NCBI RefSeq assembly: GCF_007971225.1 | Contig: NZ_CP042435.1 | Location: forward strand, 2,421,501-2,485,500 | DNA: 64,000 nt | From: Panacibacter ginsenosidivorans | Lineage (GTDB): Bacteria > Bacteroidota > Bacteroidia > Chitinophagales > Chitinophagaceae | Direction of reading: 5' to 3' | In this document: in pieces, positions 13,056 through 37,260 of the stretch | Numbering within the stretch: the stretch's first letter is position 1 | Layout of the letters: each line of letters starts with the position of its first letter | Position numbers and translations under genes: made by a program | Notes under the pieces: model-generated | The model's database searches: none | Told to the model about the DNA's origin: nothing | The model's input: the letters and a program-made list of their open reading frames with translations, nothing else

Positions 13056-13964
13056 ATGAAAAGAAAAATTATTTTTCTTGCGAACCCTATCTCCGGCGGA
13101 ACAAAGAAAGATTCAGCATTCAAGCATATAGATGCAACTTTTAAAAAACAGCAAATTCCATTTGAAATATTACCCACCGTTGCTTCGGGTGATTACGATT
13201 TCCTAAAAGCAAAGATCAGGGAAGAAAATATTACAGATATTGTGATCATTGGCGGCGATGCTTCTGTAAACCAGGTAGTACAATCATTGCGTACGGAAAA
13301 AGTTCGTTTTGGTATTATACCTTTTGGCAGTGGTAATGGTTTTGCATTTGCAGCAGGTATTCCTAAGAATGTGTCAAAGGCTACCAAAATTATTCTGGAA
13401 GGGAAATCGTCTGTTGTAGATGCTTTTAAAGTGAATGAGGAATTCTCCTGTATGCTTAGCGGTATTGGCTTTGATGCAAAGGTGGCGCATGATTTTGCAG
13501 CAAAATCAAGCAGAGGGTTAATTACTTATACACAGCAAAGCATCATTAATTTTTTTAAAGCACATCCTTACCAGTTTGAAGTTTCCGTAGATGGATTTTC
13601 CCTTTTTACAGAAGCATTTTTTATAAGTGTGGCTAATGCAAATCAATTTGGCAATAATTTTACTATTGCACCAAAAGCAAGCTTGAATGATGGTATGCTG
13701 GATGTGGTAATTGTGCAGAAGATGAATAAGGCAAAACTGCCTTTTGCTATTTTAAAACAGTTACGTGGTAACAATAAAATGCAGCAGTTGGTAGAAGCAA
13801 TGAGCAAAAAGAATGTATTGTATTTTCAAACGGATACAATAACAATTAATAATATTAAGCAGGCTCCTTTACATATTGATGGCGAGCCAAAGGAAACTGC
13901 CGCGCAGATAAAGTTTGAAATTATCAAAGACTGTTTTGATCTGTTGCAGCCTTCAAAAAACTAG
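13056..13964 (+). CDS. Diacylglycerol-kinase-family lipid kinase (YegS/DgkB-like)
   Basis: 302 residues with the NAD/diacylglycerol kinase fold: LANPISGG at the start, the nucleotide motif IIGGDASVNQV at 64-74 and the FGSGNGFA loop at 90-97. The usual GGDGT is replaced by GGDAS, an uncommon change in the phosphate-binding loop. The expected reaction is ATP-dependent phosphorylation of diacylglycerol, sphingoid base or a related lipid. The C-terminal beta-sandwich with the IDGEP motif is present, so the protein is full length. Confidence 0.85.
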   Translation: MKRKIIFLANPISGGTKKDSAFKHIDATFKKQQIPFEILPTVASGDYDFLKAKIREENITDIVIIGGDASVNQVVQSLRTEKVRFGIIPFGSGNGFAFAAGIPKNVSKATKIILEGKSSVVDAFKVNEEFSCMLSGIGFDAKVAHDFAAKSSRGLITYTQQSIINFFKAHPYQFEVSVDGFSLFTEAFFISVANANQFGNNFTIAPKASLNDGMLDVVIVQKMNKAKLPFAILKQLRGNNKMQQLVEAMSKKNVLYFQTDTITINNIKQAPLHIDGEPKETAAQIKFEIIKDCFDLLQPSKN

Positions 13965-20002: not shown

Positions 20003-20045
20003 GAATAATTTTTTGAGCCATGCATTTGAATAAGTATTAAGCATC

Positions 20046-20065
20046 GTTGCGTCGCACGCTTGTAC
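20046..20065 (+). repeat. GTTG repeat copy 11 (type 1), left half of a head-to-head pair
   Basis: GTTGCGTCGCACGCTTGTAC, preceded by TTTTTTGAGCC and AAGCATC. It faces copy 12 across GTTCAATAATGATCTGAAC. Confidence 0.92.
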
Positions 20066-20089
20066 GCTTTGTTCAATAATGATCTGAAC

Positions 20090-20109
20090 GCACAAGTGAG
20101 TGACACAAC
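20090..20109 (-). repeat. GTTG repeat copy 12 (type 2), right half of a head-to-head pair
   Basis: On the minus strand GTTGTGTCACTCACTTGTGC. The pair mixes a type 1 and a type 2 core, so the two halves are not simple copies of each other. Confidence 0.92.
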
Positions 20110-20195
20110 AGGCGATGACCAAAGAGCAAAAGTTGATAAACAAAAAGTGAATAAATTTTTTAACACACATAATCATCATTAACGCGTTTCCAAAG

Positions 20196-20210
20196 TCCCC
20201 CACCGGGGGA
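20196..20210. repeat. G/C-rich palindrome, intergenic
   Basis: TCCCCC-ACC-GGGGGA followed by TTTAGGGAG, 27 bp before the TPR-like gene. It is related in form to the element inside alaS. Confidence 0.6.
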
Positions 20211-20236
20211 TTTAGGGAGCTTTTAATTATCACACC

Positions 20237-20863
20237 ATGAAAAAAATGATCTTCTCTCTTATGCTGTTTGTATCTGTAACAGCAATGGCACAAAGCGATA
20301 AATATGAAGCTGCCATGAAGAAAGGTTTTGCAGCAATGGACAGCGCCAAAACAGTTATGGACTGGCAAAATGCTGCGGCCATGTTTGAACGTATTGGCGA
20401 TGCAGAAAAAACACAATGGCTTCCATATTATTATGCGGGTCTTGCCTATTCAACAATCGGCTGGATGAACCCTAAAGGTGATGCAGATGCCAATGCAGAT
20501 AAAATAAAAGCATTGTGCGATAAAGCAGAAGCCATTGAAAAAAATGCAGAGATCTATTCATTGCGCAACATGGCTGCCACACAGCAAATGATCGTCGATC
20601 CGCAGAGCCGGTGGGCTAGCTATGGGCAAGAAGCTGCTGCTGCATTACAAAAGGGAATGGAGCTTGATCCTAATAATCCAAGATTGTATTACCTGCAGGG
20701 CATGAGTGTTTTTGGTACACCGGAACAATTTGGTGGCGGTAAAGAAAAAGCAAAACCAATATTGCAGAAAGCAGTTGATCTGTTTAAAGCAGAACAGCCC
20801 AAACCAATGTACCCGCATTGGGGTCAAAAGCAGGCGGAAGACGCATTGGCACAATGCCAGTGA
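20237..20863 (+). CDS. Exported TPR-like protein of unknown function
   Basis: 208 residues with a cleavable signal peptide (MKKMIFSLMLFVSVTAMAQ, about 19). The rest is helical with loosely TPR-like units: WQNAAAMFERIGDAEKTQWLPYYYAGLAYS and ALQKGMELDPNNPRLYYLQGMSVFG. Probably a periplasmic protein-protein contact module; no partner is evident. It is closed by a strong hairpin terminator, so it is monocistronic. Confidence 0.75.
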   Translation: MKKMIFSLMLFVSVTAMAQSDKYEAAMKKGFAAMDSAKTVMDWQNAAAMFERIGDAEKTQWLPYYYAGLAYSTIGWMNPKGDADANADKIKALCDKAEAIEKNAEIYSLRNMAATQQMIVDPQSRWASYGQEAAAALQKGMELDPNNPRLYYLQGMSVFGTPEQFGGGKEKAKPILQKAVDLFKAEQPKPMYPHWGQKQAEDALAQCQ

Positions 20864-33181: not shown

Positions 33182-33559
33182 ATGACAGAAGGAAAACGAC
33201 AGCGCCAGGTAGCTGGTGTAATACAGGAAGAGATGAATGATATTTTCAGACGGCTGGGATTGAATATGATCAACGGTGGAATGGTTTCCATATCCAGTGT
33301 AAAAGTTACACCAGACCTGCTGGAAGCACGTATCTATTTAAGCCTTTTCAAAATCGAAGACCAGGAAGCCGCGATGAAAAAAATTGAAGCAAAGGCATGG
33401 GAAATAAAAAAGGAACTTTCAGAAAGAGTAAAACATCAGTTGCGCCGCATACCTGTTTTGCATTATTTTAAAGACGATACACTTGACCAGGTTTTTAAAA
33501 TGGAAGAGATCTTTAAACAGATCAACGAAGAAAAAAACACACAAGATTCAACCGAATAA
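33182..33559 (+). CDS. rbfA: Ribosome-binding factor A
   Basis: 125 residues with the KH-like fold of RbfA: RQRQVAGVIQEEMNDIFRR at the start, VSISSVKVTPDLLEARIYLSLF and LRRIPVLHYFKDDTLDQVFKMEEIFKQI. It helps late maturation of the 16S rRNA 5' end in the 30S subunit. It is followed by mtgA 40 bp downstream, probably co-transcribed although mtgA also has a candidate -7 box. Confidence 0.93.
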   Translation: MTEGKRQRQVAGVIQEEMNDIFRRLGLNMINGGMVSISSVKVTPDLLEARIYLSLFKIEDQEAAMKKIEAKAWEIKKELSERVKHQLRRIPVLHYFKDDTLDQVFKMEEIFKQINEEKNTQDSTE

Positions 33560-33599
33560 TTTTCAACATCCTCTATCTTAGGCCGGTAATTTTTATGGC

Positions 33600-34298
33600 A
33601 TGCTAAAAACCATTTGGCGCTGGACGAAACGCATTTTTATTATAGGCTTTATTTCATCATTTATTTATCTGCTTATCTGCAAATGGGCAATGCCACCAAT
33701 TACACTAACACAATTGGGAGCTCTGTTTGAAGGCGATGGTTTAAAACGTGATTATGTTAGCTGGGAAGAAATTTCTCCCAACGTAAAACTTGCAGCCATG
33801 GCAAGTGAAGACCAGTTGTTTCCTGATCACAATGGTTTTGACTGGAACGCATTGAAGAAAAGTTTTGCAACAGATCCGCGGAAAAAAAATAAAATAGCAG
33901 GTACCGGTGCAAGCACCATCAGCCAGCAAACAGCTAAAAATGTTTTTTTGTGGCAAGGCGAAGGCTTTATGAAATATGTGCGCAAAGCACCCGAGTTTTA
34001 TTTTACACAACTCACCGAATGGATCTGGGGTAAGCAACGTATTCTTGAAGTTTATCTCAACACTATTGAAATGGGCAAAGGCATCTTTGGCATAGAAGCC
34101 GCTTCACAGGCCTATTTCAAAAAGCCCGCTAAAAATCTTACCCGCAGCGAAGCCGCACAGATCATTGCCTGTTTGCCCAATCCAAAAGTTTATACCGTAA
34201 AACCACAAAGTCGTTTTGTTTCGTGGAAATACAAATGGATCTTGAGGCAGATGAATAATATCCAGGACGATCCGGATATACAGGCATTGATGAAGTAG
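33600..34298 (+). CDS. mtgA: Monofunctional biosynthetic peptidoglycan transglycosylase
   Basis: 232 residues: one membrane anchor (about 13-30) and a GT51 domain with EDQLFPDHNGFDW (catalytic Glu in EDQ), GASTISQQTAKNVFLW, KQRILEVYLNTIEMGKGIFGIEAAS and RSEAAQIIACLPNP. It polymerises lipid II glycan chains on the periplasmic face. Length is typical. A G/C-rich palindrome begins directly after the stop. Confidence 0.95.
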   Translation: MLKTIWRWTKRIFIIGFISSFIYLLICKWAMPPITLTQLGALFEGDGLKRDYVSWEEISPNVKLAAMASEDQLFPDHNGFDWNALKKSFATDPRKKNKIAGTGASTISQQTAKNVFLWQGEGFMKYVRKAPEFYFTQLTEWIWGKQRILEVYLNTIEMGKGIFGIEAASQAYFKKPAKNLTRSEAAQIIACLPNPKVYTVKPQSRFVSWKYKWILRQMNNIQDDPDIQALMK

Positions 34299-34301
34299 AT
34301 G

Positions 34302-34320
34302 CCCCCAACCCCTGAAGGGG
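34302..34320. repeat. G/C-rich palindrome after mtgA
   Basis: CCCCCAA then CCCCT-GA-AGGGG, three bases after the mtgA stop. A weaker relative (CCCCTC, seven or so bases, GAGAGG) lies near 37315. It may act as a weak terminator. Confidence 0.55.
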
Positions 34321-34370
34321 AATAAGAAAAATATTTTTGTGCCAAACTGCTGTACTGCTATTAAACTTCT

Positions 34371-34390
34371 GTTGCGTCGCACTCTTGTAC
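34371..34390 (+). repeat. GTTG repeat copy 20 (type 1)
   Basis: Exact GTTGCGTCGCACTCTTGTAC, with left flank TTTTTGTGCC and right flank ATTATTCAGC. Only 35 bp from the inverted repeat at 34426. Confidence 0.92.
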
Positions 34391-34425
34391 AGCATCAAGA
34401 TTATTCAGCTTTCATTGTAGCGGAG

Positions 34426-34453
34426 TTGCGGTGCGTGACACACGCACCACGGC
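34426..34453 (+). repeat. 28-bp inverted repeat, left copy, bracketing a small gene
   Basis: Starts TTGCGGTGCGTG and ends CGCACCACGGC. It matches the right copy at 34987-35014 (opposite strand) in 25 of 28 positions. Each copy is also itself a near-palindrome (GGTGCGTG / CACGCACC). Confidence 0.85.
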
Positions 34454-34469
34454 TGAGGAGAACTTTGTG

Positions 34470-34889
34470 TCATTTAATAAAAATTTCTTTTTCTTTTTTT
34501 GTTTTCCAACTATCCCCATAATTTAAGTTTTTATCTTTTGTCAACTTATATGGATAATAGAATGTGTAAGCGTCCTCTTCATCTTTGCTTTCAACAATTA
34601 CTGCAATTGCATCAGTTTTTTGATTTGTGTCAGGGTCAATTACTTTAACGTCATAGAAAATTGCAATTGCTTTGTAATCGCCTCTTTCTACGCCTTGCTT
34701 TAGTCCTGCTTTTAAATCTTTAATAACTGTATTTGATTCTGGATTTTCATCTCCGTCATAAGTTCCCACAAAAGCAACGCTGTCTTTATTATCTACCGCT
34801 GACGATAACGGATAAAATTCTCCAGGCTTTGTTAATAGATCTTCAACAAAAGGAAAGGTTGCGTCAAGAATTTCCATTATATAGTTCAT
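34470..34889 (-). CDS. Hypothetical protein in an inverted-repeat-bounded segment
   Basis: 139 residues from the ATG at 34889. The open frame runs further upstream and encodes a short hydrophobic stretch followed by Cys (YNIIISFLFSPCKKSNEK) that looks like a lipoprotein signal, but no start codon in frame precedes it before the right inverted repeat, so the N-terminus may be damaged or use a rare start. The body contains EFYPLSSAVDNKDSVAFVGTYDGDENPES and AIAIFYDVKVIDPDTNQKTDAIAVIVESKDEE. No known family is recognised. Confidence 0.55.
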   Translation of the reverse strand: MNYIMEILDATFPFVEDLLTKPGEFYPLSSAVDNKDSVAFVGTYDGDENPESNTVIKDLKAGLKQGVERGDYKAIAIFYDVKVIDPDTNQKTDAIAVIVESKDEEDAYTFYYPYKLTKDKNLNYGDSWKTKKEKEIFIK

Positions 34890-34986
34890 CGTATAATCTT
34901 TTGATAGCGTTTTTTCGTTTGATTTTTTGCATGGAGAGAACAAAAAAGAAATGATGATATTGTAAAGTTTTCGTGAATTTCCTTTC

Positions 34987-35014
34987 GCCGTGGTGTGTGT
35001 GACACGCACCACAA
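34987..35014 (-). repeat. 28-bp inverted repeat, right copy
   Basis: On the minus strand starts TTGTGGTGCGTG and ends CACACCACGGC. With the left copy it encloses 589 bp and the hypothetical gene. No convincing target duplication is visible outside the two copies. Confidence 0.85.
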
Positions 35015-35049
35015 TTGTGCTTAGATAAAAGCCGCTTCTTCTTCCAAAC

Positions 35050-35069
35050 GTACAAGTGAGTGACACAAC
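35050..35069 (-). repeat. GTTG repeat copy 21 (type 2)
   Basis: On the minus strand GTTGTGTCACTCACTTGTAC, then AGGCGATGCC. 36 bp outside the right inverted repeat. Confidence 0.92.
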
Positions 35070-35108
35070 AGGCGATGCCATGAAGAACAAAAGCTGATAA
35101 GCAAAATC

Positions 35109-35636
35109 CTACTTCATATCAAAAAACTTTTCTGCATCAAGCCAGGTATTCATTCGTTCATATTTTGTCTCATGCATATTGTGTGTAGCCGTAAACATGA
35201 TGGCTCTTCCATTAAATACAGACAAATTAAAATCATGATCATCTATCAGTACATCGCCTTTCAATACACTTTTATCTCCGCATAGAATTCTTCTTTTCCA
35301 GTGTATGAAAGGGAAATGTTTATCAAGCCATTCATATTTATCCTGCAATGAGTATTCAAACTCCATAGCAGCGGAAGCGACATACACATCAAAGCGGTCA
35401 TTCAGTTCTTTAATCATTTCCTGGCTGTGCGGTATCAATGGCAGGTCTTTGAAGAATCCTTTTTGGTGCGGGTATTGCTTTACAACCTGCCTGTGCTCTT
35501 CGGGAACAATTGCATGCAACTTTGTGCCATAAAGATCTTCTTTAGTGTAACGGATACCAAAATCACGTTCGTACCATTCTAAAAAGCGTTCAATGGCGTC
35601 GGCCATTACTTCATCCATATCTATCAGTATTCTCAT
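35109..35636 (-). CDS. 5'(3')-deoxyribonucleotidase (HAD family)
   Basis: 175 residues from the ATG at 35636, which puts the HAD motif I ILIDMDEV at the very start. Later VYVASAAMEF (motif II region) and VLIDDHDFNL (motif III/IV) complete a NT5C-type active site. It dephosphorylates deoxynucleoside monophosphates, adjusting dNTP pools. Upstream sequence includes TACTTTCG as a possible -7 box at 35653-35660. Confidence 0.88.
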   Translation of the reverse strand: MRILIDMDEVMADAIERFLEWYERDFGIRYTKEDLYGTKLHAIVPEEHRQVVKQYPHQKGFFKDLPLIPHSQEMIKELNDRFDVYVASAAMEFEYSLQDKYEWLDKHFPFIHWKRRILCGDKSVLKGDVLIDDHDFNLSVFNGRAIMFTATHNMHETKYERMNTWLDAEKFFDMK

Positions 35637-35652
35637 AATATTAATTAAGCAG

Positions 35653-35660
35653 CGAAAGTA
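35653..35660 (-). promoter_or_regulatory. Candidate -7 box for the nucleotidase gene
   Basis: TACTTTCG on the minus strand, 16 bases before the ATG. Confidence 0.35.
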
Positions 35661-35711
35661 AAAAATATGGTGCACTTAATCATGCAGTATGCATATGATC
35701 ATTGGTGTGTG

Positions 35712-35723
35712 TGACAAATGTCA
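35712..35723. promoter_or_regulatory. Crp/Fnr-like operator upstream of DUF2892 gene
   Basis: TGACA-AA-TGTCA. With the -7 box TACTTTTA at 35747-35754 and the start of transcription four bases later (35759), the centre lies at -41.5, the classic position for an activator touching RNA polymerase. Confidence 0.5.
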
Positions 35724-35776
35724 TATTCCAGCTTACACAGACTTGCTACTTTTATGTTTCAAATAAATTCATTGTT

Positions 35777-35989
35777 ATGAAAAGGAATGTTGGCAATAGC
35801 GACAGACTAATAAGATTTATACTGGCAGCATTATTTGCAGTACTTTGTTTTACCGGTACTGTAACAGGCGTAGCAGGTGTTGCACTACTTGTACTTGGAG
35901 GCATTTTCCTGCTTACCTCTCTTATAGGTTTTTGTCCTTTATATACACTGGCGGGTATCAATACCTGCAAGGCTAAGAAGGTTAATTAA
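35777..35989 (+). CDS. DUF2892 (YgaP-like) small membrane protein
   Basis: 70 residues from the ATG at 35777. RNVGNSDRLIRFILAALFAVLCF and LLVLGGIFLLTSLIGFCPLYTLAGINTC show the two-helix DUF2892 fold with the conserved Cys-Pro before the end. The exact role is unknown; related domains occur fused to rhodanese and are often redox- or nitrogen-oxide-linked. A TGACA-AA-TGTCA palindrome upstream suggests control by a Crp/Fnr-type activator. Confidence 0.88.
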   Translation: MKRNVGNSDRLIRFILAALFAVLCFTGTVTGVAGVALLVLGGIFLLTSLIGFCPLYTLAGINTCKAKKVN

Positions 35990-35994
35990 TGGTG

Positions 35995-37260
35995 TTATTT
36001 CAAACTGGAATATACAAGGTTTTGAAATTTAGACGCAAGATCGCCATGAGTGTTAGGTGTATGTTGTGTCATTATAAGGCAAACAAGTTTTGCTTTTGGG
36101 TCTGCCCAATAAGTAGTGCCATAATAACCGCCCCATGCAAAGGATCCCTCATTGCGCGAACCTTTTGCAGCGCCTTTTGCTGTAACGAGCTCGAAGCCGA
36201 GGCCAAAGTTACTATCGCCGAATAACCCTGGTTCCAGTTGGTCGCTCAGCATCAATTCAACAGTGCGTGGCGCTAACAATTGGCTGCCATTATATTTTCC
36301 TTTGTTAAGCAACATTTGCAAAAAGATGGCATAGTCATATGCTGTAGAAGAAAGACCCGCACCACCACTAAAATAATGTTTATTCATAATTGGGTAGTCA
36401 GGATCTATATTACGAAAAGTGTGGCTCCATTTGATGATCTGGTGATTGTCATCTTCTGTATATACTGTAGCAAGCCTGCCTGCTTTTGAAGCAGGCAAAT
36501 TGAAATAAGTATCGTTCATGCCAAGCGGCTCAAAAATTCTTTTACGAAAATAATCTTCGAGGTTCATGTCGCTGATCACTTCAGTTAAACAACCCAGCAA
36601 ATCAGTATTTAAACCATATTGCCATTTTTCGCCAGGTTGAAATTTTAACGGCTGTTTGCCAAGTATTTTCATTTTATCCAGCAGGCTCGCATCAAAATAT
36701 CCAAGTCCGGAAGGAACACCTGCTTTTGCATAAATGGCTTTCATGTCATCGCTGCCAATATCGCCATAATCAATACCTGATGTATGTGTGAGCAGGTCAC
36801 GAAAAGTGATCTCTCTTTTTGCAGGAACAGTTGTATAAGTTGTATCTGCAGCATTATACTTATCTAATACAACAGGATGTTTGAATTCGGGAATAAAATC
36901 CGAAATAGGTTCGTCCAGCAAAAACTTCCCTTCTTCATACAGCATCATAATACCAACACTGGTGATGGCTTTTGTCTGGCTCATAATGCGGAATATGGCA
37001 TCGTTTGGCATTGGCTTTTTTGTATCTGCATCAAGGTATCCGTAGCCTTTATATTGCACCAGTTGATTGTCTTTTACGATAATTGTAACCACACCTTTTA
37101 CCCAATCATTTTTTACATAACTATTTACCAGGCTGTCAATACGTGCTAATCTGGTATAATCTACTGTGACATTTTGTTTACCGCTTTTATCAATAACCTG
37201 TGCAAAGCCAGCAACAGAGAAAGTAAAAAATAATGCAATGAGTAAAAGATATTTTTTCAT
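35995..37260 (-). CDS. Exported serine hydrolase of the beta-lactamase class C/esterase fold
   Basis: 421 residues with a signal peptide (about 20, ending VAGFA). The catalytic S-x-x-K is SQTK at 94-97, and YGLNTDLLG supplies the YxN motif near 217. The domain covers most of the chain with a long beta-lactamase-type region FRDLLTHTSGIDYG. Members are D-aminopeptidases, esterases or penicillin-binding-like proteins; resistance to beta-lactams cannot be concluded. It converges on the DUF2892 gene with a five-base gap. Confidence 0.88.
   Translation of the reverse strand: MKKYLLLIALFFTFSVAGFAQVIDKSGKQNVTVDYTRLARIDSLVNSYVKNDWVKGVVTIIVKDNQLVQYKGYGYLDADTKKPMPNDAIFRIMSQTKAITSVGIMMLYEEGKFLLDEPISDFIPEFKHPVVLDKYNAADTTYTTVPAKREITFRDLLTHTSGIDYGDIGSDDMKAIYAKAGVPSGLGYFDASLLDKMKILGKQPLKFQPGEKWQYGLNTDLLGCLTEVISDMNLEDYFRKRIFEPLGMNDTYFNLPASKAGRLATVYTEDDNHQIIKWSHTFRNIDPDYPIMNKHYFSGGAGLSSTAYDYAIFLQMLLNKGKYNGSQLLAPRTVELMLSDQLEPGLFGDSNFGLGFELVTAKGAAKGSRNEGSFAWGGYYGTTYWADPKAKLVCLIMTQHTPNTHGDLASKFQNLVYSSLK

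Follow-up and report, generated by a model that had tools for sequence, protein, structure and literature searches.

An orphan gene framed by paired palindromes inside an ancestral GTTG inverted-repeat element of Panacibacter ginsenosidivorans

In a 64,000-nt stretch of the Panacibacter ginsenosidivorans genome (the window), we found that a small orphan gene lies inside an inverted-repeat element of a high-copy family, the GTTG elements, whose arms are ancestral at this locus. The reading that we favor, and that we hold to be moderately likely, is that foreign DNA with palindromic edges was acquired at the tip of the pre-existing element: the interior of one GTTG element would have been replaced or enlarged by a hairpin that we call P, an AT-rich lipoprotein-like orphan gene, and a second P. 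The evidence for such a cargo is an orthologous element without it and the symmetrical placement of the two P hairpins, not the bracketing of a gene by repeats as such.

The first-pass annotation had described two near-palindromic 28-bp inverted repeats around the gene, and both are exactly in place (Table 1), matching as reverse complements in 25 of 28 bases. A 21-nt core pattern matches three times in the window, once at the left copy and twice at the right, where the palindrome also matches in its other reading; 100 dinucleotide-preserving shuffles gave an expectation of 0.00. Each 28-mer holds hairpin P in near-perfect form (GGTGCGTG-loop-CACGCACC, then ACGGC), with folding energies under RNA parameters of -14.6 and -13.1 kcal/mol (z -2.1 and -1.5). 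The inverted match extends outward, ungapped, to 85 nt (34369-34453 and 34987-35071; 60/85 identical); each 28-mer is the inner end of an inverted arm of 85 bp and not the outer end of a cassette. Each arm carries a GTTG core, and the hairpin begins exactly 39 nt from it on either side, which accounts for the slight GTTG likeness that had been remarked on. The two cores, type B on the left and type A on the right, enclose an interior of 659 nt composed of hairpin, gene and hairpin, with a single ORF, on the minus strand, between the 28-mers.

Table 1. Features of the locus between the mtgA-like and NT5C-type genes, and GTTG family examples, in window coordinates
Feature	Position	Strand	Remarks
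Monofunctional transglycosylase (mtgA-like), flanking, conserved	33600..34298	+	PF00912, E=3e-46
Left outer arm, type B end	34327..34425	+	T-rich lead, CTTCT, core, then 35 nt to the 28-mer
GTTG core type B, GTTGCGTCGCACTCTTGTAC	34371..34390	+	exact member of the 1,234-copy 20-mer family
Left 28-mer, hairpin P (GGTGCGTG-ACA-CACGCACC)	34426..34453	+	tail ACGGC points inwards
Orphan gene, 139 aa from first clear ATG, stop codon included	34470..34889	-	
Signal-peptide-like stretch KLYNIIISFLFSPC, without its own ATG	34929..34970	-	aligned with the L068/L099 homologue
Right 28-mer, hairpin P (GGTGCGTGTCACACACACC)	34987..35014	-	tail ACGGC points inwards; holds GTG codons in frame with the ORF
Right outer arm, type A end	35015..35105	-	GGCATCGCCT before core, T-rich lead; conserved in G059
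GTTG core type A, GTTGTGTCACTCACTTGTAC	35050..35069	-	exact family member
NT5C-type 5'-nucleotidase, flanking, conserved	35109..35675	-	PF06941, E=6.7e-47
GTTG family, window examples	679, 9927, 15886, 22856, 26098, 31147, 34371, 38493, 47009, 48266, 52248, 57391, 60608		

The GTTG core is a degenerate 20-mer with at least 1,234 exact copies in the 5.5-Mb genome of P. ginsenosidivorans (Chitinophagaceae) and 1,033 in a same-genus relative (G059); it is present in 62 of 103 Chitinophagaceae genera, and its reversed control has zero matches among the genomes listed. The core occurs in three near-invariant forms (A and B, as in Table 1, and C, GTTGCGTCGCACACTTGTAC), with strictly linked variant letters (TGTGTCACT or GCGTCGCA). 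A blast search with either outer side of the locus against the genome returned dozens of strong matches, and the window by itself holds about 30. Placement and pairing were quantified in a sample of about 1.67 Mb (30% of the genome). This sample holds 527 cores, 12 of them within ORFs, and core density is about one per 3.2 kb. Among 487 intergenic elements, 274 lie downstream of a stop and 213 upstream of a start; the idea that the elements trail gene 3' ends, so that convergent genes yield inverted pairs, is unsupported as a general rule. Rfam gave zero matches over window positions 33500-36000, and we found no description of the family in the open-licence literature. The family appears to be undescribed, and it is more interesting than the gene that it brackets here.

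Quantification of neighboring cores revealed that all 80 pairs less than 260 bp apart are convergent and that 67 of the 80 join an A core to a B or C core (46% expected; p = 4e-12), so the cores behave as two-ended elements. A compact element reads T-rich lead, arm, core, interior (mostly 24-118 nt), core, arm and A-rich end; the inverted arms are about 60-85 bp long with one 20-nt core each (A or B/C), and conservation of the ends resides mainly in this internal core. The elements are short, non-coding, intergenic and high in copy number, with two inverted ends and a variable interior, in which nested inverted repeats are enriched (mean best score 6.2 vs 4.6 in shuffles). Inverted pairs 260-1300 bp apart are also common (n = 33 in 1.67 Mb). 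Because these wider pairs show no excess of A with B/C (18/33) and often enclose ordinary genes, such as recO, bracketing alone proves no mobility, and we rejected them as further carriers of cargo.

The orthologous site was compared in one same-genus genome, G059, at about 74% DNA identity, so that exact junctions are unreadable. Both genomes have rbfA, mtgA, the element, NT5C and a serine hydrolase in this order, with a 77% identical orthologue of the mtgA-like gene and an NT5C orthologue at the matching place; the left outer arm, itself part of a genome-wide repeat family, is present at the orthologous position as well. In G059, a B core and an A core enclose 147 nt, and this interior has neither P nor a gene. 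Since the arms stand between the same two genes in G059, they are ancestral at this locus, and the G059 interior is a different one that lacks both hairpins and the gene. The first-pass annotation had proposed looking for a relative without the segment, with an exact insertion and a target duplication; the gene-less site is there as predicted, and no target duplication was identified. A second orthologous element (genome ~2441530) likewise keeps its cores, and the interior between them is 24 nt long here against 87 nt in G059. These two comparisons indicate that arms persist and interiors change, and the same element with a different loop in G059 makes the loops look like changeable sites able to take up DNA. 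The sparse distribution of the gene and its low GC suggest the direction, gain here rather than loss in G059. The second element lies at window positions 20030-20250, aligned with G059 contig 1 at ~1547345-1547565, and its 87-nt interior in G059 has a nested hairpin.

The gene had been said to lack a clear start and to have its signal peptide cut off near the right repeat, and this holds, because a homologue in another genus (L068/L099) has a proper ATG and signal peptide (MRAILLTISFIVLTVLSC) at the aligned place. Here the clear ATG is at 34889, and the lipoprotein-signal-like stretch lies upstream of it in frame and has no own ATG; near that stretch, only GTG codons inside the right 28-mer and one TTG offer starts in this frame. 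Its lipobox is poor (FSPC), and that of the closest full-length relative is normal. The gene is probably missing its start, and it is probably decaying. Within arm A (35049-35081, minus strand), an in-frame ATG (ATGGCATCGCCTGTTGTGTCACTCACTTGTACG, MASPVVSLTCT...) opens a frame that runs through the right 28-mer into the gene; GTTG arms could supply starts to captured genes.

The orphan gene has 32% GC, against 38%. We found relatives of its protein in 7 of 196 other sampled genomes of the family (24-57% identity); the nearest relatives belong to other genera (45-58% identity). When named genomes were scanned separately, relatives appeared in Chitinophagaceae bacterium DXS, four species of Taibaiella, and a Williamsia-labelled MAG. 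This Actinomycetota-labelled MAG (L242; JADCRZ010000006.1) has the closest relative, and the genome collection places it with this family; its label is probably wrong. The protein has no Pfam, NCBIfam or PADLOC family, no relative in the plasmids or phages searched, and no sequence match in the PDB. Its AlphaFold2 model is confident (pLDDT 87), and gave no Foldseek match below E 0.001; a second look at the Foldseek matches revealed no VIA-align Z above 4.5, and the protein may nonetheless have a known fold.

Outside the locus, P is rare. Under the strict pattern the genome holds only the two window sites, and looser copies at 619585, 4049160 and 5354210 bring the total to about five, the looser ones with unrelated genes; the genes on the tail side of these three have no Pfam, NCBIfam or PADLOC family. 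The search for further copies that the first-pass annotation had proposed thus does find similar palindromes, and it extends across the family: among 296 family genomes, the strict pattern gives 35 tailed P hairpins, which come from 18 genomes and 14 genera, and a reversed control pattern gives none. A variable stem position keeps its pairing (26 C-G, 5 T-A, 3 other; Fisher p = 4e-4). P lies 38-41 nt after a GTTG core at three copies in this genome and at four in another genus (G003), where it is next to the core on one side only and brackets no gene. Despite only about five copies in the genome, P follows the core far beyond chance (p ~1e-6). P is a rare palindrome that occurs independently elsewhere in the family and stands repeatedly about 38-41 nt from a GTTG core. 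The two-sided arrangement in the window is a single example, because the other P-bearing elements found have P on one side.

Elsewhere P takes other forms. In other genera it is paired with a second hairpin, tails outward (inward at the window locus), or repeated in tandem. At five loci (L192, L197, L180, L174, L181), P and a second hairpin of different stem (GGTTCGTG...CACGAACC) lie 6-20 nt apart with GCC/GGC tails outward, REPIN-like; two others (L202 in G075, and L235) have short tandem arrays of P-like hairpins with a period of about 34 nt (...GGTGGTGTGTGGGGACACACACCACGGC...). Following the P at 619585 (L115:9541-12199, genome ~619541-622199) are a gene fragment, a 153-aa orphan ORF and a 484-aa ORF with the look, judged by eye, of an IS110-type transposase, a patch that we read as further foreign DNA beginning at the P hairpin. 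The permease upstream of the P at 5354210 is found in the genomes of three relatives, and the region downstream fails to align.

From the two orthologous comparisons and the placement of P, we infer how such an acquisition may have come about. A GTTG element could fold into a cruciform or into a single-stranded hairpin at the replication fork. The tip of the element would then be a preferred place for the insertion of other palindromes together with their cargo, by illegitimate or single-strand recombination. The orphan gene would have entered in this way and lost its start codon at the right junction.

Among the alternatives, we regard it as unlikely that the locus is a mobile cassette or small transposon that moved as a unit with the gene, with the arms or the 28-mers as terminal inverted repeats. 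The arms are symmetrical and face inwards around a sporadic AT-rich gene, and they are of types A and B, like the two ends of a compact element, all of which such a unit would explain. However, the arms alone are already at the G059 site, the gene is single-copy (no second copy was found in the genome), strict P is confined to this locus apart from about three looser sites with unrelated genes, and the interior holds no recombinase. The stand-alone cassette of the first-pass annotation is not supported by these observations, and we rejected its simplest form, with 28-bp terminal repeats, since the repeat runs further out into GTTG arms, and G059 has these arms but not the gene.

We find it improbable that the gene lies by coincidence between two copies of a REP-like palindrome, P, which a TnpA-REP (RAYT) protein may once have moved. 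P does have the character of a short, dispersed, intergenic hairpin with a conserved one-sided tail (NNGGC), other genera have it in pairs or tandem, relatives commonly carry RAYT genes, and one homologue of the gene sits among RAYT-associated palindromes (in G056). Against this, the genome has no Y1_Tnp match above the cut-off, only a 21-bit remnant, and P is within 1.5 kb of Y1_Tnp at none of the 30 loci sampled. Moreover, with about five P in the genome, two at identical distances from their cores are unlikely by chance. The earlier suggestion of a REP-type pair around a decaying gene comes nearer than the cassette, but no link to a tyrosine transposase was found. In Chitinophagaceae bacterium DXS, a Y1_Tnp-like (RAYT) gene (L099:13819-14364) is flanked by its own 41-bp palindrome (TCTGGCGCGAGTGTTCCGCAGGATC...), with copies at 13539, 14476, 14694 and 14868, which also flanks a homologue of the bracketed gene; this is possibly an atypical Bacteroidota REP system. 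We rejected the G056 homologue, flanked by 41-bp palindromes, as a second cassette: the palindromes form a dense RAYT-associated repeat in that genome, so it offers no independent evidence for a cassette.

Inverted repeats can promote deletions, and the gene is open over 139 codons; we nonetheless hold it very unlikely that the gene originally stood between mtgA and NT5C and that G059 lost it through recombination between the arms or the P hairpins, given its sparse distribution, its nearest relatives in other genera and its low GC.

Acquisition at the tip of a GTTG element also admits a broader version, which we put forward tentatively and with some doubt: the loop of the two-ended Chitinophagaceae GTTG hairpin family might be a dedicated or highly preferred acquisition site, with arms kept and interiors swapped between species. 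At one extreme the interiors would be 24-nt stubs and at the other whole genes between secondary hairpins, with nested palindromes in the middle of the range, in a family with more than 1000 cores per genome in some genera. If true, a family of more than 1000 copies with fixed ends and exchangeable loops would be a direct system for DNA capture by hairpins at the fork, and would bear on the route by which orphan genes enter the intergenic regions between core genes. Read more modestly, the locus explains an apparent cassette with terminal repeats, and cautions against equating inverted bracketing with mobility in such genomes.

Compared with known systems, the locus resembles integron attC sites in that a small single gene lies near palindromic sites with conserved GTT/AAC motifs. 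The attC boxes RYYYAAC...GTTRRRY differ from the GTTG cores, where GTTGYGT stands 5' and ACRCAAC stands 3'; the polarity of a core pair is opposite (GTTG outside-in), and there is no cassette array of the integron kind here. P is like REP, BIME and REPIN sequences in being a 20-28-nt hairpin whose one-sided tail is unpaired and conserved, in forming pairs and tandem arrays in relatives, and in belonging with the short (20-40 nt) intergenic palindromes of dispersed copies that characterize REP/RAYT systems. The consensus REP foot next to the stem is GT[AG]G or CGTC (PMC3733652, PMC6006769), and atypical REPs without it occur in Bacteroidetes; P lacks this foot and has an NNGGC tail (reverse complement GCCNN), and, unlike REP, its copy number is low and no RAYT was found beside it at the 30 Y1_Tnp loci sampled. 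The GTTG elements themselves are most like MITEs, with inverted arms at both ends that enclose a short non-coding interior; no related transposase was identified, nor a target-site duplication at their outer ends, the window and G059 sites compared being too diverged for junctions. They further depart from that type in ends conserved mainly within the 20-nt core and in interiors that change at orthologous sites, and their copy number is very high against that of the closest known element type.
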